In this document: piece after piece, positions 30,973 through 57,220 of the stretch
How the letters are laid out: every line of letters begins with the position of its first letter
How positions within the stretch are numbered: the first letter of the stretch is position 1
Notes under the pieces: model-generated
The model's database searches: none
Told to the model about the DNA's origin: nothing
What the model saw: only the letters and a program-made list of their open reading frames with translations
Source: Rhodovulum sp. PH10
GTDB taxonomy: Bacteria > Pseudomonadota > Alphaproteobacteria > Rhizobiales > Xanthobacteraceae
Assembly (NCBI RefSeq): GCF_000293785.1
Contig: NZ_AKZI01000001.1
Coordinates: 1 to 64,000 of the forward strand
Reading direction: 5' to 3'
Length of the DNA stretch: 64,000 nucleotides
Made by a program: the position numbers and the translations under genes

Positions 30973-32862
30973 ATGACCGACACAGACACTCTTTCCCTTG
31001 CGGCCGCGTTTCCGCCGGCCACCCGTGAGCAATGGCTCGCGCTCGTCGATGGTGCGCTGAAGGGCGCACCGTTCGAGAAGAAGCTCGTCTCCAAGACCTA
31101 TGACGGGCTGCGCATCGAGCCGCTCTATCCCGCCGACCGCGCCGCCGTGCCGGTGGCCGCCCGCGCCAGCGGTGCGCCCTGGCAGGTGATGCAGCGGGTC
31201 GACCATCCCGACCCGGCCGCCGCCAATGCCGAGATCCTGAGCGATCTCGCGAACGGCGCGACCGGCCTCTCGCTGGTGTTCGCCGGCAGCCTGGGCGCCC
31301 GCGGCTGGGGCATCGGCGCCGACGCCGACACGCTGGCAAAAGTGCTGAAGGACGTCCGGCTCGACGCGATCGCACTCGAGCTGCAGCTTTCGCCGCAGGC
31401 CAAGGACGCGCCGCGGGCGCTCGCCGAGCTGATCGCCGCGCAGAAGCTGACGCCGTCGGCGCTCGACATCCGCTGGGCGATCGATCCGCTCGGCGCGATG
31501 GCCGCCTTCGGCACTGCGCGGATCGCCTGGCCGGACATGGCGAAGGAGTTTTCCATCCGCGTGCGCGACCTCGCCGCGCGCGGCTTCAAGGGACCGTTCG
31601 CGGTCGCCGACGGGCGGGTGGTGCACGATGCCGGCGGCTCGGAGGCGCAGGAGCTCGCCTGGCTGGTCTCGGTCGCGCTCGCTTATGTCCGCGCGCTGGA
31701 AGCCGACGGCGTTCCGCTCGACGCCGCGCGAAAAACGATCTTCTTCCGGGTCGCGGCGGACGCCGACCAGTTCCTGACGATCGCGAAGATCCGGGCGCTG
31801 CGGAAGCTGTGGGCGAGCGTCGAGGCGGCCTGCGGGCTCGCCCCCGAGCACGTGTTCGTCTCGGCCGAGACGGCGTGGCGGATGATGACCCGGCGCGACC
31901 CGGCGGTGAACATGCTGCGTGGCACCGTCGCGGTCTTTGCGGCCGGCGTCGGCGGGGCCGACGCGATCACCGTGCTGCCGTGGACGGCGGCGCTCGGCCT
32001 GCCGGAAGGCGGCGCGCGGCGCACCGCCCGCAACACCCAGCTGATCCTGCTGGAGGAGTCCTACCTCTCCAAGGTCGCCGATCCGGCGGCCGGCGCCGGC
32101 GGCCCGGAGGATCTGACGAAAAAGCTCGGCACCGCCGCCTGGGAGCTGTTCCAGGAAATCGAGGCGGCCGGCGGCATCTGGCCGGCGCTGACGCAGGGCC
32201 TGTTGCAGAAGAAGGTCGCGGCCGTCCGTGCGTCGCGCGAAAAGGCGGTGGCGAACCGGCGTGATCCGCTGACCGGCACCAGCGAGTTCCCGAACATCGC
32301 CGAAGGGCCGGCCGAGGTGTTGGACGTCGCGCAGCCGGCGGTGGCGCCGCTGCCGTCCGGCGTGGCGCTCGAGCCGATGCCGGCGATGCGGCTCTCCGCA
32401 CCGTTCGAGGCGCTGCGCGACGCCTCCGACGCGGTGAAGGAGAAGACCGGCGCACGGCCGAAGATCTTCCTCGCCAATCTGGGAAAGCTCGCCGCCTTCA
32501 CCGCGCGCGCGACCTTCACGAAGAACTTCTTCGAGGCCGGCGGCATCCAGGCGGTCGGCAACGACGGTTTTCCGGCCAATGGCGGCACCGATCTCACCGC
32601 GCTGGTGGAAGCCTACAAGGCGTCGGGCGCGACGCTCGCCTGCCTGTGCTCCTCCGACGACGGCTATGCCGCCGAGGCGGTCGCGGCCGCCAAGGCGCTG
32701 ACCGATGCGGGCTGTGCCCACATCTATCTCGCCGGGCGGCCGGGCGAGCAGGAGGCGGCCTTCAAGGCGGCCGGCGTCACCCGCTTCGTCTTCATGGGCG
32801 GCGACGTGCTCGGCATGCTGCAGGAAGCGCAAAAGCTCGCCGGGCAGGGTGCACGGCCGTGA
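30973..32862 (+). CDS. mutA: Methylmalonyl-CoA mutase small (beta) subunit
   Basis: The 629-residue protein is homologous to the catalytic subunit but lacks its catalytic apparatus: its cobalamin-binding domain has [12 protein letters not shown] in place of the DxHxxG axial-ligand motif. In heterodimeric mutases this subunit is structural. The ATG at 30973 lies 149 bases after folK, and no cobalamin riboswitch was found in that gap. The stop codon overlaps a GTG that opens a small ORF before the large subunit (see 32859). Confidence 0.93.
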
Positions 32863-32998
32863 GCATCGTGCAAGCCACCGGCACGGAGGAGACCGGCCCG
32901 GCCTCCCCCGGCACGGTCGCCATGGCGGCGGCCCGGGCCGCGACGGCCCTCATCGACACGGCGACCGGCGGGTCGCATCTGGTTCACGAGGCACGCAG

Positions 32999-33002
<4 letters not shown>
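32859..33002 (+). CDS. Possible 47-residue protein between mutA and mutB
   Basis: A GTG at 32859-32861 overlaps the mutA stop (GTGA). The frame runs to a TGA at 33000-33002, which overlaps the mutB start (ATGA). Both junctions are the 4-base type that signals translational coupling. The predicted 47-residue product is Ala/Thr/Gly-rich, with a mildly hydrophobic helix ([15 protein letters not shown]) and has no family I know. Third-position GC is very high, as in its neighbours, but that is not decisive in this genome. It may be no more than spacer. Confidence 0.35.
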
Positions 33003-35154
<2,152 letters not shown>

Positions 35155-35158
<4 letters not shown>

Positions 35159-38741: not shown

Positions 38742-39755
38742 ATGAATCCGCGCCCTGCCCCGGCCGTTTCGGCCCCACCCGCCATCGATCTCGACCGCCT
38801 CGTCAAGGGCGTGCGCGCCGGCGAGCGCGCCCATATCGCCCGCGCCATCACGCTCGCCGAATCGAAGCGCGCCGACCACCAGCTGGCCGCCCGCCGGCTG
38901 GTGCAGGAGCTGCTGCCGGCGACCGGCAAGGCCGTGCGGGTCGGCATCACCGGCGCGCCGGGGGTGGGAAAATCGACCTCGATCGACACGCTCGGCGCGT
39001 GGCTCACCGAACGCGGCCACAAGGTGGCGGTGCTGGCGGTCGATCCCTCCTCGGCCCGCACCGGCGGCTCGATCCTCGGCGACAAGACGCGGATGGCGCG
39101 GCTCTCGGCCGACGAGAACGCGTTCATCCGCCCCTCGCCGTCGGCCGGCACGCTCGGCGGCGTCGCGGCAAAGACCCGCGAGACGATGCTCATTTGCGAG
39201 GCGGCAGGCTACGACGTGATCCTGGTCGAGACGGTCGGCATCGGCCAGTCGGAGACCGCGGTCGCCGACATGACCGACTTCTTCCTCGCGCTGATGCTGC
39301 CGGGTGCCGGCGACGAGCTGCAGGGCATCAAGAAGGGCCTCGTCGAGCTCGCCGACATGATCGCGGTCAACAAGGCGGACGGCGACAACGTGACGCGTGC
39401 GCGTGCGGCGGCGGCGGAATACCGCGCGGCGCTGCACATCCTCACCCCGCGCTCACCGAGCTGGCAGGTGCCGGTGATCACGTATTCGGGCTACACCGGC
39501 GACGGCATCGCCGCCCTGTGGAACCACGTGATGGAGCACCGCAAGACGCTGGAGCAGACCGGCGAGCTCGCCGAGCGGCGGCGCGACCAGCAGGTGAAAT
39601 GGATGTGGTCGATGGTCGAGGACCGGGTGCACGGCCGCATCGCCTCCGATCCGGCGCTGCGCGCAAAACTGCCGCAGATCGAGGCGGGCGTCGCCGATGG
39701 CCGCCTGTCGCCGGCGATCGCGGTCGACCAGATCTTCTCCGCGCTCGGATGGTGA
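38742..39755 (+). CDS. meaB: MeaB-type GTPase, methylmalonyl-CoA mutase chaperone
   Basis: The 337-residue G3E GTPase protects methylmalonyl-CoA mutase from inactivation and gates cofactor loading. Walker A is GAPGVGKST at residues 71-79; DPSSARTGG, ETVGIGQSE and the base-specificity motif NKADGDN follow. It lies 3.6 kb downstream of mutB, separated by unrelated minus-strand genes, but clearly serves the same enzyme. It overlaps the following pyroglutamyl peptidase gene by 7 bases. Confidence 0.95.
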   Translation: MNPRPAPAVSAPPAIDLDRLVKGVRAGERAHIARAITLAESKRADHQLAARRLVQELLPATGKAVRVGITGAPGVGKSTSIDTLGAWLTERGHKVAVLAVDPSSARTGGSILGDKTRMARLSADENAFIRPSPSAGTLGGVAAKTRETMLICEAAGYDVILVETVGIGQSETAVADMTDFFLALMLPGAGDELQGIKKGLVELADMIAVNKADGDNVTRARAAAAEYRAALHILTPRSPSWQVPVITYSGYTGDGIAALWNHVMEHRKTLEQTGELAERRRDQQVKWMWSMVEDRVHGRIASDPALRAKLPQIEAGVADGRLSPAIAVDQIFSALGW

Positions 39756-44936: not shown

Positions 44937-46499
44937 ATGCCGCTCGATGAAGAACTTCGGTCGAATCTCTCGGCCCGCCGCGACAAGATCGTGGCCGCGG
45001 GCGGGCCACGCAAGACCAAGGAGCGGCACGACAAGGGCCTGATGACCGCCCGCGAGCGGATCGAGGGGCTCTGCCAGGAGGGCACCTTCCAGGAATACGG
45101 CGCCCATGTGCGCCACGGCTGCACCTCGTTCGGGATGTCGGAGGTCGAGATCCCGGCGGACGGCGTGGTGGTCGGCACCGGCTTCGTCGAGAACCGGCAG
45201 ATCGCCGTGTTCAGCCAGGACTTCACGGTGGTCGGCGGCACGCTCGGCAAGATGCACGGCCGCAAGATCGTGTGGGCGCAGGACTACGCCACCAAGAACG
45301 GCTGCCCGCTGGTCGGCTTCAAGGATTCCGGCGGCGCCCGTATCCAGGAGGGCATCGACGCCCTGTCCGGCTACGGCGAGGTGTTCTACCGCAACGTCAA
45401 CCTGTCCGGCGTGGTGCCGCAGATCGCCATCATCGCCGGCCCGTGCGCCGGCGGCGCCTCCTACTCTCCCGCGCTGATGGACTTCATCATCATGACGCGG
45501 ACCAACGCCCAGATGTTCATCACCGGGCCGCAGGTCATCAAGACCGTGTCGGGCCGCGACGTCAGCATGGACGAGGTCGGCGGCGCCGAGATGCACGCCG
45601 CGGTGAGCGGCAACGTCCACCTGCTCGCCGACGACGACGCGCACGCCATCGCGCTGACCCGCAAGCTGCTCTCCTACCTGCCGAGCAACAACACCGAGGA
45701 CCCGCCGCACGCGCCCTATCCGGACCTCGACCTGAGCCCCGATCCGGAGATCGACCGGCTGGTCCGCTCGGACGCCTCCGACCCGATGGACATGCACGGC
45801 ATCGTCAAGCGCGTGCTGGACGACGGCGAGCTGTTCGAGATCCACACCAACTTCGCCAAGAACTTGATCGTCGGCTTCGGCCGCCTGCAGGGTCTGGTGG
45901 TCGGCGTGCTCGCCAACAACTCGATGGAGAAGGCCGGCTGCCTCGACATCGACTCCTCCGACAAGGGCGCGCGCTTCATCCGCTTCTGCAACGCCTTCAA
46001 CATCCCGATCGTCACCTTCGTCGACGTCCCGGGCTTCCTGCCGGGGGTCGACCAGGAGCGCGGCGGCATCATCCGGCACGGCGCGAAGATGCTGTTCGCC
46101 TATTCCTCCGCGACGGTGCCGAAGCTGACGGTGGTGACCCGCAAGGCCTATGGCGGCTCCTATCTGGCGATGTGCAGCCAGGAGATGGGCGCCGACGTGG
46201 TGTTCGCCTGGCCGACCGCGCAGATCGCCGTGATGGGCGCCGAGGGCGCCGTCAACATCCTCTACAACAAGGAGCTGAAGGCGATCGACGACGGCGCCGC
46301 CAAGCAGGCCAAGCGCAAGGAGTTCGTCGAGCACTACAAGGCCGAGTTCGCCTCGCCCTATCTCGCCGCCGCCCGCGGCTACATCACCGACGTGATCGAG
46401 CCGGAGACCACCCGCGCGGTGCTCTCGCTCGCGCTGCGCAAGCTGCTCGGCAAGCGCGAGCTGCGTCCCGCCAAGAAGCACGGGCTGATCCCGCTCTGA
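44937..46499 (+). CDS. mmdA: Methylmalonyl-CoA decarboxylase carboxyltransferase (alpha) subunit
   Basis: The 520-residue protein is an acyl-CoA carboxyltransferase of the MmdA/PccB family. Oxyanion-hole blocks are GPCAGGASYSPALMDF (near 162-177) and KAYGGSYLAMCSQEMG (near 402-417). The family also includes propionyl-CoA carboxylase beta, so the sequence alone does not fix the reaction. The downstream OadB/OadG-type membrane genes and free biotin carriers, and no biotin carboxylase, point to decarboxylase use: transfer of CO2 from (S)-methylmalonyl-CoA to biotin. Start ATG 44937 has a strong Shine-Dalgarno (GAAGGAGGGG). Confidence 0.88.
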   Translation: MPLDEELRSNLSARRDKIVAAGGPRKTKERHDKGLMTARERIEGLCQEGTFQEYGAHVRHGCTSFGMSEVEIPADGVVVGTGFVENRQIAVFSQDFTVVGGTLGKMHGRKIVWAQDYATKNGCPLVGFKDSGGARIQEGIDALSGYGEVFYRNVNLSGVVPQIAIIAGPCAGGASYSPALMDFIIMTRTNAQMFITGPQVIKTVSGRDVSMDEVGGAEMHAAVSGNVHLLADDDAHAIALTRKLLSYLPSNNTEDPPHAPYPDLDLSPDPEIDRLVRSDASDPMDMHGIVKRVLDDGELFEIHTNFAKNLIVGFGRLQGLVVGVLANNSMEKAGCLDIDSSDKGARFIRFCNAFNIPIVTFVDVPGFLPGVDQERGGIIRHGAKMLFAYSSATVPKLTVVTRKAYGGSYLAMCSQEMGADVVFAWPTAQIAVMGAEGAVNILYNKELKAIDDGAAKQAKRKEFVEHYKAEFASPYLAAARGYITDVIEPETTRAVLSLALRKLLGKRELRPAKKHGLIPL

Positions 46500-46532
46500 G
46501 CGGGCGAGCGCGGCGCACGGAGGCCCGTCCCG

Positions 46533-46727
46533 ATGTCCCACCACCCCTTCCCCGGCCTGCCGCCGTGGTCGGGGGTGGTGCGTCGGCACGCCGGTGCGGC
46601 CCGCCTCGAGCCGTGCGACATGCGCGGTCGCGACGCCGGGCCTGGTCCGGCGTCCGGGCCGTCCGGTCGTGACGGACCCTGCAAGACCCAGTTTCACTCC
46701 GTCGCCACGGGGACGACACCACCATGA
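46533..46727 (+). CDS. Possible 64-residue protein between mmdA and first biotin carrier
   Basis: An ATG at 46533 has a GGAGG site nine bases in front, and the TGA at 46725-46727 overlaps the start of the biotin carrier gene (ATGATGA). The predicted product is Pro/Gly/Arg-rich with two Cys and no known family. It does not look like the small epsilon subunit (MmdE) of the Veillonella enzyme. The spacing signals are good, but there is no homology support. Confidence 0.3.
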   Translation: MSHHPFPGLPPWSGVVRRHAGAARLEPCDMRGRDAGPGPASGPSGRDGPCKTQFHSVATGTTPP

Positions 46728-47143
46728 TGAGACATCTGCGGATCACCATCGACGGGCGGCCTTACGACGTCGTCGTCGAGGACGTCACCGACGCCGCCGG
46801 CGGCAGCTCCACCGTGCCGGTGCAGACGCCGAACGCCCCGGCGCCGGTCGGCCGGCCGCCGGCCTCCACGCCGATCGCCGGCACCGGCGCGGCGGGCGCC
46901 GTCTCCCATCCGACGCCGGCCGCCGGCGGACCGGACGACCGCACCGCGCCGCTCGCCGGCGTCGTGCTGGAGATCAACGTCGCGATCGGCGACGAGGTGG
47001 CGATCGACGATCCGCTGGTGATCCTCGAGGCGATGAAGATGAAGACCGTGATCGGCGCCCACAAGGCGGGCACCGTCTCGGCCATCCACGTCAAGGCGGG
47101 CGACTCGGTCGATTCCGAGCAGCCGCTGGTGACGATCTCTTGA
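46724..47143 (+). CDS. mmdC: Biotin carrier protein 1 (MmdC-like)
   Basis: The 139-residue protein has a conserved N-terminal part (MMRHLRITIDGRPYDVVVED), a Pro/Ala/Thr linker, and a biotinyl domain at about residues 73-139. The biotinylated Lys is in ILEAMKMKT near residue 104. It carries CO2 from the carboxyltransferase subunit to the membrane pump. A second very similar gene is at 48938; the C-terminal 65 residues share 49 identities. Start codon options are 46724 and 46727. Confidence 0.92.
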   Translation: MMRHLRITIDGRPYDVVVEDVTDAAGGSSTVPVQTPNAPAPVGRPPASTPIAGTGAAGAVSHPTPAAGGPDDRTAPLAGVVLEINVAIGDEVAIDDPLVILEAMKMKTVIGAHKAGTVSAIHVKAGDSVDSEQPLVTIS

Positions 47144-47258
47144 GGCGGAGCACGCGCGTGACCGGCGCAGACGACGCACGCCGGCCGGGCGGCCGGCGGA
47201 AACGGATCTCGCTTCCGTCCGGCCCGGCACGGACGACGCGGAGATCGGGAGCAGATCG

Positions 47259-47639
47259 ATGAACGAGACCTTGAGCTACGGCCTGTCCGTCGGCTTTTTC
47301 GCTTACGGCATGATGATCGTGATCGCCGGCCTGTGCGCCGTGCTGATCAGAGTGATCGTGACGGTGCTGGCCAAGACTTCCAAGGCCCCCGCCAAGGCTT
47401 CCTCCAAGGCGCCCGCTCCGGCGGCACCGAAGCCCGCCGCGGCCGCTCGTGCCGCACCGGCGGTACCGGTGCCGGGCTCCGCGGTCGACGACGGCGTGAT
47501 CGTCGCGGTGATCACCGCCGCGGTGCATGCCGCCCTCGGCGCCGGGCACCGCATCGTCCATCTCGAGGAGGCCTCGCACTCCGCCTGGACGCGCGACATC
47601 CGCGCGCGCCACCACACCTCGCACTCCCCCCATCGTTGA
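47259..47639 (+). CDS. OadG/MmdD-like small membrane subunit
   Basis: The 126-residue protein has one N-terminal membrane helix (residues 13-40), a ~35-residue Ala/Pro/Lys linker, and a C-terminal domain with VVITAAVHAALG-type helix and HSAWTRDIRARHHTSH. This is the OadG_2/MmdD plan; the family's small subunit holds the pump and carboxyltransferase together. It is encoded between the first biotin carrier and the pump subunit. Confidence 0.88.
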   Translation: MNETLSYGLSVGFFAYGMMIVIAGLCAVLIRVIVTVLAKTSKAPAKASSKAPAPAAPKPAAAARAAPAVPVPGSAVDDGVIVAVITAAVHAALGAGHRIVHLEEASHSAWTRDIRARHHTSHSPHR

Positions 47640-47682
47640 GCCCGTCGCGACCGACCAGCCCATCCAGAAAGAAGCTTTCGCC

Positions 47683-48894
47683 ATGAGCGAATTCCACATT
47701 CTCGACCTCTTCCAGGGCCTGGCGACGCTCGCGGCCGCCGAGCCGCACATCATCATCGGTCGCATCTTCCTGATGGGGCTCGGGCTGCTGCTGATCTATC
47801 TCGGCCACAAGGGCGTGCTCGAAGCGCTCCTGATGGTGCCGATGGGTCTCGGCATGGCGACCGTGAATGCCGGCGTGCTGTTCTTCCCCGGCGGCAAGAC
47901 CGGCACCCTGTTCCTCGATCCGCTCGCGAGCGGCACCGACCAGGTGATGACGCAGCTCCAGATCAACTGGCTGCAACCGATCTACACCTTCGCCTTCTCG
48001 AACGGCCTGATCGCCTGCCTGGTGTTTCTCGGCATCGGCACGCTGCTCGACGTCGGCTACGTGATGCAGCGGCCGTTCCGCTCGATGTTCCTGGCGATCT
48101 GCGGCGAGCTCGGCACGCTGGTGGCGTTCCCGATCGGCATGCTGATGGGCCTGCCGGCGCACGAGGCGGCGGCGACCGCGACGATCGGCGGCGCCGACGG
48201 CCCGATGGTGCTGTTCGCCTCGCTGATCCTGGCGCCGGAGATCTTCGTCCCGATCACCGTGGTCGGTTATCTCTATCTCGGCCTCACCTATGGCGGGTAT
48301 CCGTACCTCATCAAGGCGGTGGTGCCGAAGAAGATGCGCGCGGTGCAGATGCCGAACGAGCCCACCCGGCCGATCTCGGCCGGCGAGAAGATGGTGTTCG
48401 CGGTGGTGGCGTGCCTGCTGCTCTCGCTGCTCTTTCCGGTCGCGGCGCCGCTGTTCCTGGCGCTGTTCCTCGGCGTGATCGTGCGCGAGAGCGGGCTCAA
48501 CTACTTCTACGACCTGTTCTCCAACCAGATCCTGTACGGCGCGACCTTCTTCCTCGGGCTGGTGCTCGGCGTCTTGTGCGAGGCGAGCACCATTCTCGAC
48601 CCGAAGGTGCTGATCCTGCTGGTGCTCGGCATCCTGGCGCTGACCATCTCGGCGCTCGGCGGCCTGTTCGGCGGCATGGTGCTGTACTGGCTGTCGGGCG
48701 GAAAATACAACCCGGTGATCGGCATCGCCGCCGTGTCGTGCGTCCCGACCACCGCCAAGGTGGCGCAGAAGGTGGTCACCGCGGCGAACAAGAACGCGAT
48801 CATCCTGCCGCACGCGCTCGGCGCGAACGTGAGCGGCGTCATCACCTCCGCGATCTTCGCGGCGGTGCTCATCACGCTGCTGCGGCAAGGCTGA
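47683..48894 (+). CDS. mmdB: Na+-translocating decarboxylase pump (beta) subunit
   Basis: The 403-residue membrane protein is homologous to OadB/MmdB/GcdB. It has about nine to eleven membrane helices. Two ion-site blocks known from OadB are conserved: GGADGPMVLFAS with Asp172, and GANVSGVITSAI with Asn382. It decarboxylates carboxybiotin and in characterised members exports Na+. Na+ specificity here is inferred from those conserved residues. It lies 44 bases after the OadG-like gene. Confidence 0.93.
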   Translation: MSEFHILDLFQGLATLAAAEPHIIIGRIFLMGLGLLLIYLGHKGVLEALLMVPMGLGMATVNAGVLFFPGGKTGTLFLDPLASGTDQVMTQLQINWLQPIYTFAFSNGLIACLVFLGIGTLLDVGYVMQRPFRSMFLAICGELGTLVAFPIGMLMGLPAHEAAATATIGGADGPMVLFASLILAPEIFVPITVVGYLYLGLTYGGYPYLIKAVVPKKMRAVQMPNEPTRPISAGEKMVFAVVACLLLSLLFPVAAPLFLALFLGVIVRESGLNYFYDLFSNQILYGATFFLGLVLGVLCEASTILDPKVLILLVLGILALTISALGGLFGGMVLYWLSGGKYNPVIGIAAVSCVPTTAKVAQKVVTAANKNAIILPHALGANVSGVITSAIFAAVLITLLRQG

Positions 48895-48937
48895 GCGTCG
48901 CCCGGAAAAGCAACAAACGACGTTCGGGAAAAGAACC

Positions 48938-49363
48938 ATGATGAAACACCTGCGGATCACGGTCGAAGGGCGCGTCTACGACGTCGTCGTCGAGGACGTC
49001 GGCGAGAGCGGCAGCCCCGCCGTCGGCCACTCTCCTGCACCTGCCCCGGTGGCAGCCCCCGCCCCGGTCGCGGCGCGGCCCGCCGCTCCGGCTCCGGCCG
49101 CCCCTGCGGCGTCGGCTCCCGCCGCCAGCGGCAACGGCCCGAGCGGCGGCCCGGGCGACCGCGGCGCGCCGCTCGCCGGCGTGGTGCTCGAGGTGAGCGT
49201 GAAGGTCGGCGACACCGTCGCGGTCGACGATCCGGTGGTCGTGCTCGAGGCAATGAAGATGAAGACGGTGATCGGCGCCCACATGGCCGGCACCGTGACC
49301 GGCGTGCACGTCAAGGCGGGCGACGCGGTCGACGCCGAGCAGCCGCTGATCACCATCGGATGA
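48938..49363 (+). CDS. Biotin carrier protein 2, paralogue of the first
   Basis: The 141-residue protein repeats the plan of the first carrier: an N-terminal MMKHLRITVEGRVYDVVVED, a longer Ala/Pro-rich linker, and a biotinyl domain with VLEAMKMKT near residue 106. It is the last gene of the operon and is followed by a strong terminator. Having both carriers at the two ends of the membrane-subunit block suggests either a gene duplication or different partners. Confidence 0.92.
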   Translation: MMKHLRITVEGRVYDVVVEDVGESGSPAVGHSPAPAPVAAPAPVAARPAAPAPAAPAASAPAASGNGPSGGPGDRGAPLAGVVLEVSVKVGDTVAVDDPVVVLEAMKMKTVIGAHMAGTVTGVHVKAGDAVDAEQPLITIG

Positions 49364-49463: not shown

Positions 49464-49988
49464 TCAGCGCGTCGCGCTCGCGCGCTCGACCAGCGCGATC
49501 AGGCCGGACAGGAGGTCGAGCGGCCGCGGCGGGCAGCCTTTTATGCAAAGGTCGACCGGCAGCACCGCCGAGACCGCGCCGACCACCGCATCGCTCTCGC
49601 GAAACACGCCGCAGCCGCAGCCGCAATCGCCGACCGCCACCACGAATTTCGGATCCGGCATCGCCGCAAAGGTGCGCTCGAGCGCGACCTTCATGTTGTG
49701 CGTCACCGGACCGGTGACCATCAGCACGTCGGCGTGGCGCGGCGAGGCGACGAATTTGAGGCCGAACCGCTCGCAGTCGTAGACCGCGTTGTTCAGCGCA
49801 TGGATCTCGAGCTCGCAGCCGTTGCACGAGCCGGCATCGACCTCGCGGATCGTCAGCGAGCGCCCGTAGATCTTCCGCACCCGCGCCTCGAGCGCGAGCC
49901 CGACCTCGGCGAGCGCCGCTTCGCCCGGCGCCGGCGCCTGCGTGGTGACGGGTTTTGCGAACAGCGATTTCAGCAGAAGCGTGCGCAT
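49464..49988 (-). CDS. HyfI/NuoB-like iron-sulfur subunit
   Basis: The 174-residue protein is of the NuoB/HyfI/HycG family. It contains SCNGCE (Cys55, Cys58), GPVT and KGCPPRP (Cys152), expected ligands of a single [4Fe-4S] cluster, and an unusual GDCGCGCG (Cys122, 124, 126) where relatives usually have one cysteine. It would be the last electron-transfer subunit facing the large subunit. It lies at the end of the operon. Confidence 0.9.
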   Translation of the reverse strand: MRTLLLKSLFAKPVTTQAPAPGEAALAEVGLALEARVRKIYGRSLTIREVDAGSCNGCELEIHALNNAVYDCERFGLKFVASPRHADVLMVTGPVTHNMKVALERTFAAMPDPKFVVAVGDCGCGCGVFRESDAVVGAVSAVLPVDLCIKGCPPRPLDLLSGLIALVERASATR

Positions 49989-50010: not shown

Positions 50011-51528
50011 TCACAGATCCGCTCCGGCGTACGAGCAATTGAACGACTTGTTGCACAGTGGGAAGTCGGCGACGATATTGTTCTCGATCGCGGCTTCCAG
50101 CAGCGGCCATTGGAACCACGAGGCGTCGCGCACGTGACAGCGGCCGATCGCGCCGCCCGGCAGCACGCGCAGCCACACCAGCAGGTCGCCGCGGAACGCT
50201 TCCGCCACCGCCATGCCCTCGCACGGCGCCGAGATGTCCGGAAGCTCGGCGACGAGCGGCCCGTCCGGCAGCTCGACCAGCCAGCCGCGGATCAGCGCCA
50301 GCGAGGTCGCGATCTCGCGGATGCGAATTCGGATGCGCGCATCGACGTCGCCCGCGGTCAGCACCGGCACGTCGAGCGTCTCCGGCTCGTAGGGCGCATG
50401 AGCGAGATCGCGTCGGGCATCGAAGTCGCGCGCGGAGGCGCGTCCGACCGGCCCGCCGGCGGCGAAGCGCACGGCGAGATCGGCGGCGAGAATGCCGGTG
50501 CCGCAGGTGCGGTCCTGGATCGACGGGGTGTCCTCGTAGAGCCGGACGATCTCGGCAAAGGCCGGCTCGATCGCGTCGAGCGTGGTCGTGATCAGATGCG
50601 CGGCCTCGCGCGAGACATCGTGGGAGACACCGCCGGGAACGATGCGGTCCATCATCAGCCGATGCCCGAACGCCGCGCCGCAGGCGGCCAACACCTTCTC
50701 GCGAAAAATGCCGCAATGGGCGAGCGCGATGGCGAACGCCGCATCGTTGCAGATCGCGCCGACGTCGCCGAGGTGATTGGCAACCCGCTCGAACTCGGCC
50801 ATCACCCCGCGGATGATCTGCGCACGCGGCGGCGCCGCGATGCCGAGCGCGGCCTCGACAGCGCGGGCGAAGGCAAAGCTCGCGGCGACGGTGGAATCGC
50901 CCGACACCCGCGCCACCACCTTTGCGGCCCGCGCGATCGAGACGTTCGTGGTGAGAGCGTCGACGCCGCGATGGACGTAGCCGAGCCGCTCCTCGAGCCG
51001 GGCGACGATCTCGCCGTTGGCGGTGAAGCGGAAATGGCCGGGCTCGATGATGCCGGCATGCACCGGGCCGACCGGGATCTCGTGCAAGCCCTCGCCGATC
51101 ACCGGCAGCGTCGCATAATCCGCCGGATCGCGCAGCGGCGCTGTTTTGCGCGCGCCGAGCGGAGCAGCAAATCCCCAGGCGCCGTGATCGAGCCAGGGAC
51201 GCAGGTCGGGCGCCCCCTCCGGGACGTATCCGAACAGATCGTGCACCGCGCGTTCGAGCCTGATCGCCGGCGCATGCCACCGCCCGACCGAGGGGAAGCG
51301 CTCGTTCACCACCGGCGTGGAGACGATGCGCGGCGCCTCGCCGAGCGGACGCAGCGCGAGATGAACGATGCCCTCTTCCGCCCACAGCGAGAGGAGATCG
51401 ATGCCGCCCTCGCCCATCGCCTGCGCGACGCGGGCGAACACGTCCGCACGCACGGTGTAGCGCGGCCACGGGCGGGAATTCGGCTCGGCCGCGGTTCCAG
51501 CAATCAGACCTTGTATACGATCCGCCAT
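50011..51528 (-). CDS. HyfG-like large subunit without the NiFe cysteines
   Basis: The 505-residue protein fuses a NuoC-like domain (residues ~1-150) to a NuoD/NiFe large-subunit-like domain. The first NiFe motif RVCGxC of group 4 hydrogenases reads RVSGDS (Ser209, Ser212), and the C-terminus has PLCNKSFNCSYAG instead of the second CxxC (Cys492 and Cys498 are six apart). No nickel-iron site can form in the normal way. The fold and partners resemble Ehr complexes. The start at 51528 (MADRIQ) fits the family. Confidence 0.9.
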   Translation of the reverse strand: MADRIQGLIAGTAAEPNSRPWPRYTVRADVFARVAQAMGEGGIDLLSLWAEEGIVHLALRPLGEAPRIVSTPVVNERFPSVGRWHAPAIRLERAVHDLFGYVPEGAPDLRPWLDHGAWGFAAPLGARKTAPLRDPADYATLPVIGEGLHEIPVGPVHAGIIEPGHFRFTANGEIVARLEERLGYVHRGVDALTTNVSIARAAKVVARVSGDSTVAASFAFARAVEAALGIAAPPRAQIIRGVMAEFERVANHLGDVGAICNDAAFAIALAHCGIFREKVLAACGAAFGHRLMMDRIVPGGVSHDVSREAAHLITTTLDAIEPAFAEIVRLYEDTPSIQDRTCGTGILAADLAVRFAAGGPVGRASARDFDARRDLAHAPYEPETLDVPVLTAGDVDARIRIRIREIATSLALIRGWLVELPDGPLVAELPDISAPCEGMAVAEAFRGDLLVWLRVLPGGAIGRCHVRDASWFQWPLLEAAIENNIVADFPLCNKSFNCSYAGADL

Positions 51529-51533
51529 CGCCG

Positions 51534-52994
51534 TCACCCCAGCAGAGCCGCGACGCTGCGGAACCAGCGCACCAGCGGATCGGGCAGCCACAGGCCGGCG
51601 GCGAAGGCGAGCGCGAGATGCACGAACAGCGGGATCGCCGAGGCTTTCACGGCATCCGATTTTCCGGTCGGCGCGCCGAAGATCAGGCCCTGCATCCGCA
51701 TCACCAGCGCGCCGAGCGCGAGGATCACGCCGGCGACCAGAATTACGGTGAGCACCGGGTGGCGCGAGACCGACGCCGACACCAGCAGAAACTCGCTGGT
51801 GAAGACGCCGAACGGCGGCAGCCCGACGATGCCGATCACGCCCAGCGCGAGCCCGACCGCGAGCATCGGATGCGTCACCGACAGGCCGGAGATGTCGGCG
51901 ATGCGCTGCGTGCCTTTTGCCTGCACGACGTGGCCGACCGCAAAGAAGATCGCCGACTTGATCAGCGAGTGCATCGTCATGTGCAAGAGGCCGGCGAAAT
52001 TCGCGAGCGGCCCGCCGAGGCCGAAGGCGAAGGCGGCAATGCCCATGTGCTCGATCGAGGAATAGGCGAACAGCCGCTTGATGTCGCGCCGGCGATAGAG
52101 CATCAGCGCGGCGAAGACGAGGCTGGCGAGGCCGAGCGTCATCAGGATGGCGCCGACGTCGATCGCGTGCAGATTGCCGGCGACCACCATCTTGAAGCGC
52201 AGCAGCGCATAGAGCGCGACGTTGAGGAGGAGGCCCGACAGCACCGCGGAGATCGGCGTCGGGCCTTCGGCGTGCGCATCGGGCAGCCAGGCGTGGAACG
52301 GCGCGAGGCCGGCTTTGGTGCCGTAGCCGACCAGCAGAAACACGAAGGCGAGCGACAGGAGCTTGGAGTCGAGCGCGCCGGCGTTTTTCGCGATCTCGTC
52401 CCACGCCATCGCCGGAACGCCGGTGCCGACCACGCTCGACGCCACCATGTAGACGAGGATGGTGCCGAAGAAGGCGAGGCCGATGCCGACGCTGCCGAGG
52501 ATGAAGTATTTCCACGCCGCCTCGATCGCGGCCTCGGTGCGATAGATGCCGACCATCATCACGGTGGCGAGCGTGGCGCCTTCGACGCCGACCCACATCA
52601 AACCGATATTGTTGGCGACCAGCGCGAGGTTCATCGCCGCCATCATCGCCTGATACATCGCGTGATAGAAGCGCACGAAAGCGGGCGTGAGATGGCCGGT
52701 CTCGATCTCGTGGCCGATATAAGTGGCGCTGTAGACCGAGGTGGTGAAGCCGATGAAGGTCGTCAGCACCACGAAGAAGATGTTGAAGTCGTCGACGATG
52801 AGAAAGTCGCCGCGCTCGCGAGCGGCGGCGAGCAGCGCGAGGCCGGCGGCGAGCGTGAGGCCGGAGGCGATCACGTTGACGATCGCGCTCGCGCGATAGT
52901 TGGGGATCACGACGAGCAGCGGCACCGCGAGCGCCGGGATCACCAGCACCAGCTCGACCGGTGCGAGCGGCAGCGCAGCGAGGAGGGAGGTCAT
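51534..52994 (-). CDS. HyfF-like antiporter-type membrane subunit
   Basis: The 486-residue protein has about fourteen membrane helices and the proton-conducting transporter (NuoN/NuoM/MrpD-like) pattern: NIGLMWVGVEGATL near residues 108-121, GYGTKAGLAPFHAWLPDAH near 220-238, and LFAYSSIEHMGI near 316. Such subunits move H+ or Na+ in complex I-like machines. It is encoded upstream of the HyfG-like gene with only 5 bases between them, so translation is likely coupled. Confidence 0.92.
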   Translation of the reverse strand: MTSLLAALPLAPVELVLVIPALAVPLLVVIPNYRASAIVNVIASGLTLAAGLALLAAARERGDFLIVDDFNIFFVVLTTFIGFTTSVYSATYIGHEIETGHLTPAFVRFYHAMYQAMMAAMNLALVANNIGLMWVGVEGATLATVMMVGIYRTEAAIEAAWKYFILGSVGIGLAFFGTILVYMVASSVVGTGVPAMAWDEIAKNAGALDSKLLSLAFVFLLVGYGTKAGLAPFHAWLPDAHAEGPTPISAVLSGLLLNVALYALLRFKMVVAGNLHAIDVGAILMTLGLASLVFAALMLYRRRDIKRLFAYSSIEHMGIAAFAFGLGGPLANFAGLLHMTMHSLIKSAIFFAVGHVVQAKGTQRIADISGLSVTHPMLAVGLALGVIGIVGLPPFGVFTSEFLLVSASVSRHPVLTVILVAGVILALGALVMRMQGLIFGAPTGKSDAVKASAIPLFVHLALAFAAGLWLPDPLVRWFRSVAALLG

Positions 52995-53013: not shown

Positions 53014-53133
53014 CATCTCTCCCCGCCCGCGGGGAGAGATCGGACGGCGCGCAGAAGCGCGGCGTCCGGGTGAGGGGGCGTGCGAGTGACCGAAAGAGCC
53101 CCTCGGCCCTACCCTCTCCCCGCGAGCAGGGAG
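53014..53133. repeat. Pair of CTCTCCCC hairpins inside the hyf-like operon
   Basis: Two members of the CTCTCCCC/GGGGAGAG family lie in the gap between the HyfF-like and HyfE-like genes: CTCTCCCCGCCCGCGGGGAG (53015-53034) and TACCCTCTCCCCGCGAGCAGG onwards (53109-53131). The 180-base gap is unusual inside this otherwise tightly packed operon. Confidence 0.6.
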
Positions 53134-53175
53134 AGGGAGCGCAGGCGCCTCGCCGGATCCGAACGGCGCTCCTCA

Positions 53176-53859
53176 TCACAAATGCTCCCGCTGCTCGCCG
53201 CGGAAGCGTTCGAGCACGTTGACGTCGACGGTGTCGAACCGCTCGCGGATGCGGAAGACGAACACGCCGAACACGATGAAGGCGATCAGCACCGAGAAGG
53301 CGACCGACACCTCGACCACCAGCGGCATGCCCTTGGCGCCGGTGGCGGCGAGGATCAGCCCGTTCTCGAGCGACATGAAGCCGACCACCTGGCTGACCGC
53401 ATTGCGCCGCGTGATCATCATCAGAAGCCCGAGCAGCACCACCGCGAGCGCAAAAGCGAAATCCTCGCGCGCGACCGGATCGGCGGTCTCGACCACCGGA
53501 TGCACGACCAGGATCGACAGCGCGACGAGGCCGAGGCCGGCGAGCATGGTCGGGCCGCCGCCGATCACCCGCTCGATCTCGCGATGGACGTCGAGCTTGC
53601 GCACGATCCGGTGCAGCGCGGTCGGGATGATCAGAGCTTTTGCCAGCAACGTGATCAGCGCGGTGACCAGGAGGTGCGGCGCGCCCTGCACCAGCGATTG
53701 CCAGCCGACCGAGAGCGCCAGCACCACCGCCTGCAGGGCGAAGACGTTGATCACCGCGGTGAGGCGGTCCTGCACCAGCAGCATCAGGCTCAGCACCAGC
53801 ACGCCGCCGGCGAGCAGATGGGCGATGTCGAACAGAAACGTGCTCGTGCCCGCGGCCAT
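53176..53859 (-). CDS. HyfE-like membrane subunit
   Basis: The 227-residue protein has about six hydrophobic helices and corresponds to HyfE of hydrogenase 4 (NuoK-like region with GFMSLENGLILAATG near residues 165-179). The start at 53859 overlaps the stop of the upstream HyfC-like gene by 1-4 bases (ATGA). Confidence 0.88.
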   Translation of the reverse strand: MAAGTSTFLFDIAHLLAGGVLVLSLMLLVQDRLTAVINVFALQAVVLALSVGWQSLVQGAPHLLVTALITLLAKALIIPTALHRIVRKLDVHREIERVIGGGPTMLAGLGLVALSILVVHPVVETADPVAREDFAFALAVVLLGLLMMITRRNAVSQVVGFMSLENGLILAATGAKGMPLVVEVSVAFSVLIAFIVFGVFVFRIRERFDTVDVNVLERFRGEQREHL

Positions 53860-54815
53860 CAGAACCCCCTCGACACGAAGCGCAGGAAGACCGCGAGCGC
53901 AGCCGCCGCAAAAGCGCTGCCGAGAAAGGCCGGGTAGCGAAACACGCGCATCTTCGCGACCGAGGTCTCGGCGATCGGCAACAACACGGCGAACAGCGTG
54001 AGCTTCGCCAGCCACGCGAGAATGCCGAGGGCGAGGTGAAGCGGCCCGGCGTCGCTGCCGGCGATGCCGAACGGCACGAACAGGCAGGCGATCAGCGAGA
54101 AATAGAGGACGAGCTTCACCTGCGCGGCGAGCTCGATCATCGCGAGATGGCGGCCGGAATATTCGAGGATCATCGCCTCGTGCACCATCGTCAGCTCGAG
54201 ATGCGTCGAGGGGTTGTCGATCGGGATGCGTGCGTTCTCGGCGATGCCGACCATGATCAGCGCCAGCAGCGCGAGGCCGAGCGAAACCCGCACGCCGACC
54301 TCGCCGGTAGAAAAGAGCGCAGCGATCGCCGACAGCTGGGTGGTGCCGGCGATCAGCGCCACCGCGAACGAGATCATCAGCATCGCCGGCTCGGCGAGCG
54401 AGGCGATCATCATCTCGCGCGAGGAACCGATGCCACCGAACGCGGTGCCGATGTCCATGCCGGCGAGCGCCAGCACGAAACGGCCGGTGCCGAGCAGCGC
54501 CACCACCGCGATCAGATCGGCCGACCAGGAGAACAGGAGGCCGGTCGCATAGGTCGGCACCAGACCGGCCGCCACCCAGGTGATCGCGAACAGCGCATAG
54601 GGCGCGCGGCGATACACCCAGCTCGCATTGTCGGCGACCACCGCCTCCTTGTGCATCAGCTTCCACAGGTCGTGATAAGGCTGAAGAAGCGGCGGCCCGA
54701 CGCGACGCAAGAGCCGCGCCCGCACCTTTCGGGTGACGCCCATCATCAAGGGCGCGATCGCCACCACCAGCACGATCTGGAGAAGCTGGAGCGGGAGGTC
54801 GAGGATCAGCGCCAT
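53859..54815 (-). CDS. HyfC/NuoH-like membrane subunit
   Basis: The 318-residue protein has eight helices and the NuoH/HyfC signatures: RRVGPPLLQPYHDLWKLMHKE near residues 37-57, ASLAEPAMLMISFA near 130-143 and NARIPIDNPSTHLELTMVHEAM near 192-213. In complex I-like enzymes NuoH forms the link between redox and antiporter arms. It overlaps the HyfB-like gene by about 10 bases. Confidence 0.92.
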   Translation of the reverse strand: MALILDLPLQLLQIVLVVAIAPLMMGVTRKVRARLLRRVGPPLLQPYHDLWKLMHKEAVVADNASWVYRRAPYALFAITWVAAGLVPTYATGLLFSWSADLIAVVALLGTGRFVLALAGMDIGTAFGGIGSSREMMIASLAEPAMLMISFAVALIAGTTQLSAIAALFSTGEVGVRVSLGLALLALIMVGIAENARIPIDNPSTHLELTMVHEAMILEYSGRHLAMIELAAQVKLVLYFSLIACLFVPFGIAGSDAGPLHLALGILAWLAKLTLFAVLLPIAETSVAKMRVFRYPAFLGSAFAAAALAVFLRFVSRGF

Positions 54816-56845
54816 GCCGCCACCACCAGCATGAGGACGACGAGGGCCGCGAACACCAGCGCGAGATAGCGGCGGATGGTGAGGAACTGCAGCCGGTTGA
54901 GGTGCTGCGCGCCGCGCACGACGAAGCGCGCGAGCGGCCCGTAGGCGAACCGCCAGGCGGGATCGCGCAGTCGGTAGCGGAAATGGCCGGCGCGGGTGTC
55001 GCCCGGCCGCGGCATGTCGACCCGCTCGGTGAGGCCGAACACGACGCTGCCGAAGACGCGGCGGATCGGCATGGCGAAGCTCGCGCTCGAATACTGCGTG
55101 CGCGGGCTCGGCAGCGGATAGCCGCAATCCCATGGCGGGCTCTTGCGGGTTGTCTTGCTGGCGAGGCGGTGCACTGCGAGCGCCGCCATCAGCGCGGCGC
55201 AGAACAGGAAGGCGAACACGACGAGCCCGTTGTAGGAGCTGCGGCTCTGGGCGATCGGCACCACCGAGAGCCACGGCACCTCGACCTGCGCCGGCAGCGC
55301 GCTGCCGGCGAGGTCACGCGTCAGCGGAGCGAGCATGTCGATCACCACGCCCGGCAGGATGCCGATCAGCACGCACAGCGTGGCGAGCGCGGTCATCGCG
55401 GCGAGCGAGAAGCCGTCGACCTCGTGGGCGCCGGCGGCGGCGGGCGTGCGCGGGCGACCGAGAAAGACGATGCCGTAGGCCTTGACGAAGCAGGCGCCGG
55501 CGAGCGCAGCGGCGAGCGCCAAAAGCGCGCCGACCACCGGCACCGCGAATTTCAGCCCCCACTGGGGAAGCTGCGGGCTCATCAGGATCGCCTGGAAGGT
55601 CAGCCACTCGGAGACGAAGCCATTGAGCGGCGGCAGCGCGGCGATCGACATGCAGCCGATCAGCACGACGACCGCGGTATGCGGCATCGTGTGAACGAGC
55701 CCGCCGAGCTTTTCGGTGTCGCGCTCGCCGGTCGCGGTCAGCACCGCGCCGGCGCCGAAGAACAGCAGCCCCTTGAACAGCGAGTGGTTGAGCACGTGCA
55801 GAAACGCCGCCGCCAGCGCGAGCGCCGCCGCCGGCCCCTGCCCCGCCGCGCGGAACGCCAGCGCGAGCCCGAGCCCGATGAAGACGATGCCGACGTTCTC
55901 GACGGTCGAGTAGGCGAGCAGGCGCTTCAGGTCGCGCTGCATCACCGCATAGAGCACGCCCATCACCGCGGTGGTGCCGCCGGCGATCACCACCACGAGG
56001 CCCGACCACGGATCGATGTTGCCGGCGACGTCGAACACGATGCGCACGAAGGCGTAGACGCCGACTTTCGTCATCACGCCGCTGAGCAGCGCCGAGACGT
56101 GGCTCGGGGCCGCCGGATGGGCGAGCGGCAGCCACACGTGCAGCGGCATCAGCCCGGCCTTGGAGCCGGCGCCGAGCAGCGCCAGCACGGTGGCGAGCGC
56201 GGCAAAAATTTCCGCCGGCGGCGAGGCGCGCATGTGGGCGAAGGTGAGGTGGTCGAAGCCGGCGGTGCCGCCGATCGCAGCGCCCGGCCCGGCCAGCAGG
56301 CCGAAGGCGAGCAGCAGGCACAGCGTGCCGAAGCTCGCCATCAGAAGATAGAGGAGGCCCGCGCGGATGCTCGCGCTCTCGCGGTGATGGACGACGACCA
56401 GCGCCCACGAGGCGAGCGACATGAATTCCCAGGAGAGCAGGAAGGTGAAGGCGTCGGCGGCGAGCAGCACGAGGTTCATGCCGGCGAGGAAGGCGCCGTA
56501 GAACGGCAGCACGCGGGCCGGCTCGGGCTCGTGGCGGCCGTAGCCGATGCCGTAAAAGCTCGCCGCGGCGGCGCCGAGATCGACCACCAGCACGAAGAAG
56601 GCGGACAGGGTGTCGAGCCGGAAATGGGCGCCGGTGCCGGGCAGGCCGATCGGCAACACCACCATCGAGGGGGGCGCCTCACCGAGCAGCACGCCGAGCG
56701 CGAGCGCGACCGCCGCCAGCGCCACCACGAAGGAGGCGCCGTAGACGATCGGCGTCGCGATACGCAGGCGGCCGAGCACGGCCCCCGAAAGGCCGATCCC
56801 GAAAAAGCCCGCGATGCAGACGAGCCCGATCGCGACGTCCGACAT
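54806..56845 (-). CDS. HyfB-like antiporter-type membrane subunit
   Basis: The 679-residue protein has fourteen or more helices and the proton-conducting transporter pattern: WEFMSLASWALVV near residues 130-142, GAGSKAGLMPLHVWLPLAHP near 225-244, and RLLAYSTVENVGI near 310. A C-terminal extension (after about residue 500) anchors the subunit. It is the first gene of the six-gene operon; start ATG 56845 (MSDVAI). A second antiporter-type subunit in the same operon is the HyfF-like one. Confidence 0.92.
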   Translation of the reverse strand: MSDVAIGLVCIAGFFGIGLSGAVLGRLRIATPIVYGASFVVALAAVALALGVLLGEAPPSMVVLPIGLPGTGAHFRLDTLSAFFVLVVDLGAAAASFYGIGYGRHEPEPARVLPFYGAFLAGMNLVLLAADAFTFLLSWEFMSLASWALVVVHHRESASIRAGLLYLLMASFGTLCLLLAFGLLAGPGAAIGGTAGFDHLTFAHMRASPPAEIFAALATVLALLGAGSKAGLMPLHVWLPLAHPAAPSHVSALLSGVMTKVGVYAFVRIVFDVAGNIDPWSGLVVVIAGGTTAVMGVLYAVMQRDLKRLLAYSTVENVGIVFIGLGLALAFRAAGQGPAAALALAAAFLHVLNHSLFKGLLFFGAGAVLTATGERDTEKLGGLVHTMPHTAVVVLIGCMSIAALPPLNGFVSEWLTFQAILMSPQLPQWGLKFAVPVVGALLALAAALAGACFVKAYGIVFLGRPRTPAAAGAHEVDGFSLAAMTALATLCVLIGILPGVVIDMLAPLTRDLAGSALPAQVEVPWLSVVPIAQSRSSYNGLVVFAFLFCAALMAALAVHRLASKTTRKSPPWDCGYPLPSPRTQYSSASFAMPIRRVFGSVVFGLTERVDMPRPGDTRAGHFRYRLRDPAWRFAYGPLARFVVRGAQHLNRLQFLTIRRYLALVFAALVVLMLVVAAWR

Positions 56846-57220
56846 GCCCCCCACCATTCTTGCCGCCGGGCGACGGGCCGCACGGTGCGGCCGCCGGGCC
56901 GCGGACGCGGCCGGGACCGACGCGCGGCGCCGAAAAACGCCGGGCTCTTCGCGAGAACGCCCGCACCCACGCACGCACCCCTGCGTCGGCGTTGCGCGCG
57001 CAAAATCGCAAAGTCCGGCTCACCCAAGTCGGAAGATATGATTCTTAAATCAGCGAATCGCCGGGGACCAGGACTATTTGCGCGCAGGAGCGTTGCGCGC
57101 GCACCGCCCGGCTTCGGATAGCGGAGGTTTTGCGCCTCGCCGCTGGGAGGGAACGACGGGCACCGTGCGCACGGAGAGCCGCCGGCAGGCCGGACGACGA
57201 AGCCGCGAACGCGCGCTCAT
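56846..57220. other. Upstream region of the hyf-like operon
   Basis: No supported gene. It probably carries the promoter of the minus-strand hyf-like operon. A near-palindrome TGATTCTTAAATCA (57039-57052; arms TGATT and AATCA, spacer 4) in an AT-rich stretch some 195 bases upstream of the first start codon is a candidate regulator-binding site. It is similar to but not the same as an FNR box. Confidence 0.4.

Follow-up and report, generated by a model that had tools for sequence, protein, structure and literature searches.

A proteobacterial hyfBCEFGI operon of the Ehr class with a large subunit devoid of the nickel ligands of hydrogenases

The window, by which we mean the whole stretch of 64,000 nucleotides analysed here, carries six genes named hyfBCEFGI, all on the minus strand, between positions 49464 and 56857. 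From upstream to downstream they encode the antiporter-like subunit HyfB (54806 to 56857), whose start codon is uncertain, a HyfC/NuoH-like membrane subunit (53859 to 54815), a HyfE-like membrane subunit (53176 to 53859), the antiporter-like subunit HyfF (51534 to 52994), a large subunit resembling HyfG/NuoCD (50011 to 51528) and a small HyfI/NuoB-like subunit (49464 to 49988). Antiporter-like membrane subunits and a small Fe-S subunit are found together in one cluster, as in the energy-converting (Ech) hydrogenase-related complexes, or Ehr. The operon had been described beforehand as intact and tightly packed. This description stands as far as the full Ehr gene set is concerned; it has to be amended in that hyfA, hyfD, hyfH and hyfJ have no gene in the cluster when compared with E. 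coli hyf, and the tight spacing is interrupted by a gap of 181 bp between hyfE and hyfF. This gap holds two palindromes of the form CTCTCCC...GGGAGAG (53015 to 53040 and 53112 to 53137), also present at 248 to 271. Allowing three mismatches, the pattern occurs nine times in the window against 4.4 expected, a count reached by 7 shuffles and not significant alone. A sodium-pump-type decarboxylase cluster on the plus strand (44937 to 49363), comprising a carboxyltransferase, OAD gamma, OAD beta and two biotin-carrier proteins, converges into the operon; methylmalonyl-CoA mutase subunits (30973 to 35155) and MeaB (38742 to 39752) are encoded farther away.

The large subunit is a protein of 505 amino acids translated from the minus strand of 50011 to 51528 (MADRIQ...NKSFNCSYAGADL), and the plus-strand frame across the same positions is unrelated to it. 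It possesses a NuoC-like N-terminal domain and matches the Pfam families Complex1_49kDa (2e-33) and Complex1_30kDa above cut-off and NiFeSe_Hases only below cut-off. Its best solved relative is HycE of formate hydrogenlyase (7z0s, E 7.5e-50), and the match to the hydrogenase and complex I families exceeds chance. When its AlphaFold2 model (pTM 0.84, mean pLDDT 76.8) was submitted to a structural aligner, HycE 7z0s came first (Z 39.8 over 471 residues, 3.4 Å) and E. coli complex I NuoCD second (Z 38.4 over 449 residues, 2.7 Å), the Z gap of 1.4 being small.

The most conspicuous trait of this protein is the loss of nickel ligands. The hexapeptide RVSGDS, at residues 207 to 212 (50893 to 50910, minus strand), stands where RVCGxC is expected, exactly where the earlier note had placed it. 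At the C-terminus, where PLCNKSFNCSYAG is found, the DPCxxC end of hydrogenases is replaced by PLCNKSFNCSYAGADL (50014 to 50061, minus strand), after which the protein has no extension. Both the RxCGxC and the DPCxxC ligands of group 4 [NiFe] hydrogenases of the Hyf/Hyc type are therefore missing from the large subunit. The comparison with HycE and HyfG of E. coli proposed in the earlier note, to which two intact group-4 hydrogenases from the same genome were added, aligns the four Ni sites with S209, S212, S499 and G502, all four ligands being replaced. The C-terminal segment, with SFNCSYAG at the position of the DPCxxC end, aligns without gaps: SFNCSYAGADL in the window protein corresponds to SIDPCYSCTDR in the contig 26 hydrogenase and to SLDLVFGEVDR in NuoD of the same genome, and phmmer against HycE 7z0s gave an identical register. 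The C-terminal motif was thus rightly said to differ from CxxC, with the refinement that a cysteine is kept as C498, one residue ahead of the first Ni-Cys position. The loss is, on alignment, family-wide: 110 loci yielded 96 distinct large subunits once proteins alike throughout their last 300 residues had been reduced to one, and 94 of these lack Cys at all four Ni sites, the other two having it at 209 only. A NiFe centre in the Ehr large subunit, from which the two CxxC motifs have disappeared, is implausible, in agreement with what had been claimed. The missing C-terminal extension was considered as a further sign of Ni loss and rejected: no Ehr row extends past this end and the contig 26 hydrogenase continues for 32 residues, yet the contig 89 enzyme lacks any extension and keeps its ligands intact.

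A second, intact large subunit serving the same complex would have to be sought elsewhere in the genome, which holds two intact group-4 enzymes, on contig 26 (DRVCGICG and DPCYSC) and contig 89 (ERICSLC and DPCVSC). Because each is set among its own subunit genes and is about 30-34% identical to the large subunit of the window, these enzymes are not spare parts of the Ehr operon. NuoD is encoded on contig 83, and further PF00374 matches lie on contigs 58, 25 and, weakly, 11. Inspected by eye, one of the two hydrogenase clusters lies near formate-channel-like and FdhD-like genes and the other near hypA/hypB-like genes. HypA- and HypB-like genes adjoin the contig 89 cluster, also by eye, so that the cell is probably able to mature NiFe enzymes.

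A scan of named genomes returned at least 572 confirmed relatives, in Alpha-, Beta- and Gammaproteobacteria, of which 80 were kept; among the matches listed, the closest named ones belong to Rhodoplanes serenus, R. tepidamans and R. elegans (73-75% identity), and Xanthobacter autotrophicus likewise has a member of the clade. Of 198 genomes from the same bacterial family, 103 give a match at E 1e-20, a count that takes in hydrogenases and NuoD, and 78 do so at E 1e-100 or better; in a sample of the phylum, 62 of 398 match at 1e-60. A tree of 49 rows was computed without the RVSGDS columns and without the segment that begins at CNKSFN. In it 37 Ni-less rows, the window protein among them, form a clade with support 100/99, and the addition of two long-branched Ni-less rows results in a group of 39 that is set apart from hydrogenases and NuoD at the low support of 80/51. 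This tree, which contains no published Ehr reference, is compatible with a single loss of Ni.

Because the gene caller overlooked genes in many loci, finding the large subunit in just 56 of 81, synteny was counted by tblastn. The order hyfB-C-E-F is conserved upstream in all 60 loci with room, hyfI lies downstream of the large subunit in 69 of 76, and two HyfH-like queries detected a HyfH-type ferredoxin subunit in none of 80. Clustering of the called genes around 81 loci gave no clue to a neighbouring substrate enzyme and no neighbour gene naming a partner; apart from the subunit genes themselves, all that recurs in at least ten loci are two antisense families, an XRE-type regulator (19 of 81 loci, near the hyfB start by position) and scattered ABC ATPases (10 of 81). 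The seven loci with room in which no hyfI adjoins the large subunit comprise five labelled Rhodopila and two proteobacterial MAGs. In four of these seven genomes there is a second Ehr, whose divergent Ni-less large subunit ends in ASGMDL, lacks NKSFN and has its own hyfI, distinct from the close hyfI that these genomes carry on another contig. The unlinked hyfI was seen by eye to adjoin an acyl-CoA-dehydrogenase-like gene in four Rhodopila-labelled genomes.

Taken as a whole, we are about 97% sure that the six genes encode a proteobacterial Ehr complex. The class reportedly goes back to Marreiros et al. 2013 and Coppi 2005. Ligand loss defines it in the passages cited here (PMC4378227, PMC10284858), with which the earlier note's attribution of that loss to Ehr agrees. 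The operon is an ordinary member of this published class and the original observation is explained by membership; what can be added to the cited passages concerns the residues of the pocket, the HyfC loop and the constraint on the HyfI cluster. A different substrate, as suggested earlier, fits. As to function, we give even odds to a redox-coupled ion pump, which possibly operates in the reverse direction. Electrons would pass straight between a soluble partner and the one cluster of HyfI, and would move to or from a small molecule lodged between HyfG and HyfC, in what was once the NiFe pocket. The reaction there would power ion transport by way of HyfB, HyfC, HyfE and HyfF or, conversely, be powered by it. 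The electron route is a guess, since no electron-input subunit was found at 80 loci with two HyfH-like queries.

The residues of the pocket bear on the nature of such a substrate. The site of Thermus thermophilus Nqo4 His38 is occupied by Ile161 in 96 of 96 proteins of the window clade, by Asp or Glu in hydrogenases and by His in NuoD, and that of Nqo4 Tyr87 by Gly210 in 96 of 96 and by Tyr in NuoD. We take His38 and Tyr87 to be the quinone-contact residues of complex I; as the large subunit keeps neither, its substrate cannot be called a quinone. Among the more distant Ehr rows, 9 of 10 have Ile161 as well; the six most divergent Ni-less rows lack it. Asp211 (95/96) and Lys494 (96/96) have a counterpart in none of five hydrogenases compared. 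In HyfC, a rebuilt loop (NPSTHLELTMVHEAMILEYSG), three residues longer than in Hyf/Hyc and bearing the signature NPxTHLELTMxHEAM, would face the large-subunit pocket. The best HyfC match in eight more distant Ehr genomes contains THLELTM in seven cases, and the weaker, divergent HyfC paralogues of those genomes are devoid of it. Because of the changed His38 and Tyr87 sites, of Asp211 and Lys494 and of this loop, the predicted pocket matches neither the hydrogenase type nor the complex I type. An ordinary quinone reductase, that is, a short complex I reducing ubiquinone in a normal NuoD/NuoH chamber, would account for a large-subunit fold near that of E. coli NuoCD (Z 38.4) and for the retained N2-type cluster ligands and HyfC Glu; it is nonetheless unlikely, given the invariant Ile161 and Gly210 and the different HyfC loop, which lines the chamber in complex I.

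The other subunits speak to a second alternative. Counting only rows within 85-125% of the length of the window subunit, the four cluster ligands of HyfI (C55, C58, C122 and C152) are retained in 71 of 71 relatives, and all four are present in each of the 85 rows of a mixed set including distant Ehr, duplicates and NuoB. Conservation is, under the same length limits, equally complete for E144, K233, K264 and E417 of HyfB (63/63), E138, K227 and E401 of HyfF (76/76), seven Glu of HyfC (70/70) and E165 and E183 of HyfE (74/74), residues to which we presume the pumping roles known from complex I. The cluster and pump residues are, as far as these alignments tell, under constraint, which does not imply activity. 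All 76 HyfF rows have Asn at the TM8 site; Asn258 was discarded as a mark of Ehr because HyfF of E. coli carries Asn too. The earlier note also envisaged a pure antiporter. In such a complex the peripheral arm would be a structural relic and the membrane arm would exchange cations for protons like Mrp. The two antiporter-like subunits with key residues intact are in keeping with this proposal, as are the electron-input module not found nearby (80 loci, two HyfH-like queries) and the 7 of 76 loci without adjoining hyfI. Against it stand the HyfI cysteines conserved in 71 of 71, the near invariance of the pocket residues over 96 proteins and the close hyfI encoded on another contig in all seven genomes concerned, on which account the absence of hyfI was dropped as proof of a non-redox complex. 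We rate a pure antiporter as distinctly unlikely, and a redox-coupled ion pump fits better.

The pocket might also bind another metal or cofactor via its remaining Cys, Asp, Ser and Lys, of which C498 (96/96), C492 (94/96), D211 and K494 are invariant or nearly so. This is improbable: among the 10 more distant Ehr rows C498 survives in just 5, for which reason it was rejected as a class-wide catalytic residue, and the model segments expected to form the pocket (residues 138 to 187 and 481 to 505) have pLDDT below 50, too low for a view of its geometry. That the complex is still a hydrogenase-4 with unusual ligands is scarcely credible, for even though HyfB and HyfF score above the cut-offs of the NCBIfam models for hydrogenase 4 subunits B and F, a part in making H2 from formate was proposed for the Ehr of Geobacter (PMC7894505) and Nitrospira hyfBCEFGI was taken as a group 4 hydrogenase (PMC5596200), Cys occurs at no Ni site in 94 of 96 relatives and, in the passages cited, HydDB gave the hyfBCEFGI cluster of At. 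ferrooxidans no hydrogenase class (PMC7735108) and Ehr expression in N. moscoviensis was not raised by H2 (PMC12342949).

Returning to the redox-coupled ion pump, we tentatively propose, at less than even odds, that the complex I/group-4 hydrogenase superfamily has in the Ehr pocket an active site of a third kind. Ser209-Asp211-Ser212, Lys494 and Ser499 would stand there beside Ile161 and Gly210, facing the HyfC signature loop, in a site made neither for Ni nor for a normal quinone. This site would bind a redox substrate supplied through a lone [4Fe-4S] cluster, no ferredoxin subunit taking part.

The question of what Ehr does is interesting at the level of the class, the copy in the window being an ordinary one. 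Ehr-type genes are common (78 of 198 same-family genomes at E 1e-100 or better), yet their subunits bear hydrogenase-4 names, so that genome surveys can misread them as hydrogen metabolism. As a possible case of this kind, H2 production and consumption were inferred in a 2026 paper for Rhodoplanes serenus from hya/hyb/hyc/hyf homologues (PMC13286885). With the signatures RxSGDS and NKSFN and that of the HyfC loop, annotators can more easily tell Ehr apart from true hydrogenase-4; the same signatures point to residues for mutation in culturable soil bacteria.

Ehr complexes have been described, in the portions of the literature cited, in Sulfobacillus with six syntenic genes (PMC4378227), in comammox Nitrospira (PMC10284858), in Nitrospirales (PMC12342949), in CPR (PMC7304191) and in Margulisbacteria and relatives, where a formate dehydrogenase partner was proposed (PMC6349859); in Geobacter, Ehr is more abundant on formate (PMC7894505). 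Published Ehr share with the window the same loss of Ni motifs in a group-4-type large subunit together with antiporter-like subunits (PMC4378227, PMC10284858, PMC6349859, PMC7304191), and we note no class-level difference from these accounts, the window operon having six genes and no formate dehydrogenase within the cluster. The hyfBCEFGI clusters of Cupriavidus (PMC2864759) and At. ferrooxidans (PMC7735108) have the same six names in the same order, a likeness drawn from their descriptions. E. coli hydrogenase-4 (Hyf) possesses homologous HyfB, C, E, F and I, and HycE 7z0s is the closest solved relative of the large subunit; they differ by all four Ni Cys, by hyfA, hyfD, hyfH and hyfJ and by a shorter HyfC loop. 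Complex I (NuoB, NuoCD, NuoH and NuoL/M/N) has in common the fold, the NuoC-like N-terminal domain, the N2-type ligands and the pumping residues, whereas the window operon has Ile and Gly in place of the quinone-contacting His and Tyr and contains no NADH module in its cluster. Mrp-type antiporters, finally, consist of membrane subunits only, unlike the window operon, which encodes HyfG and HyfI with their conserved residues.
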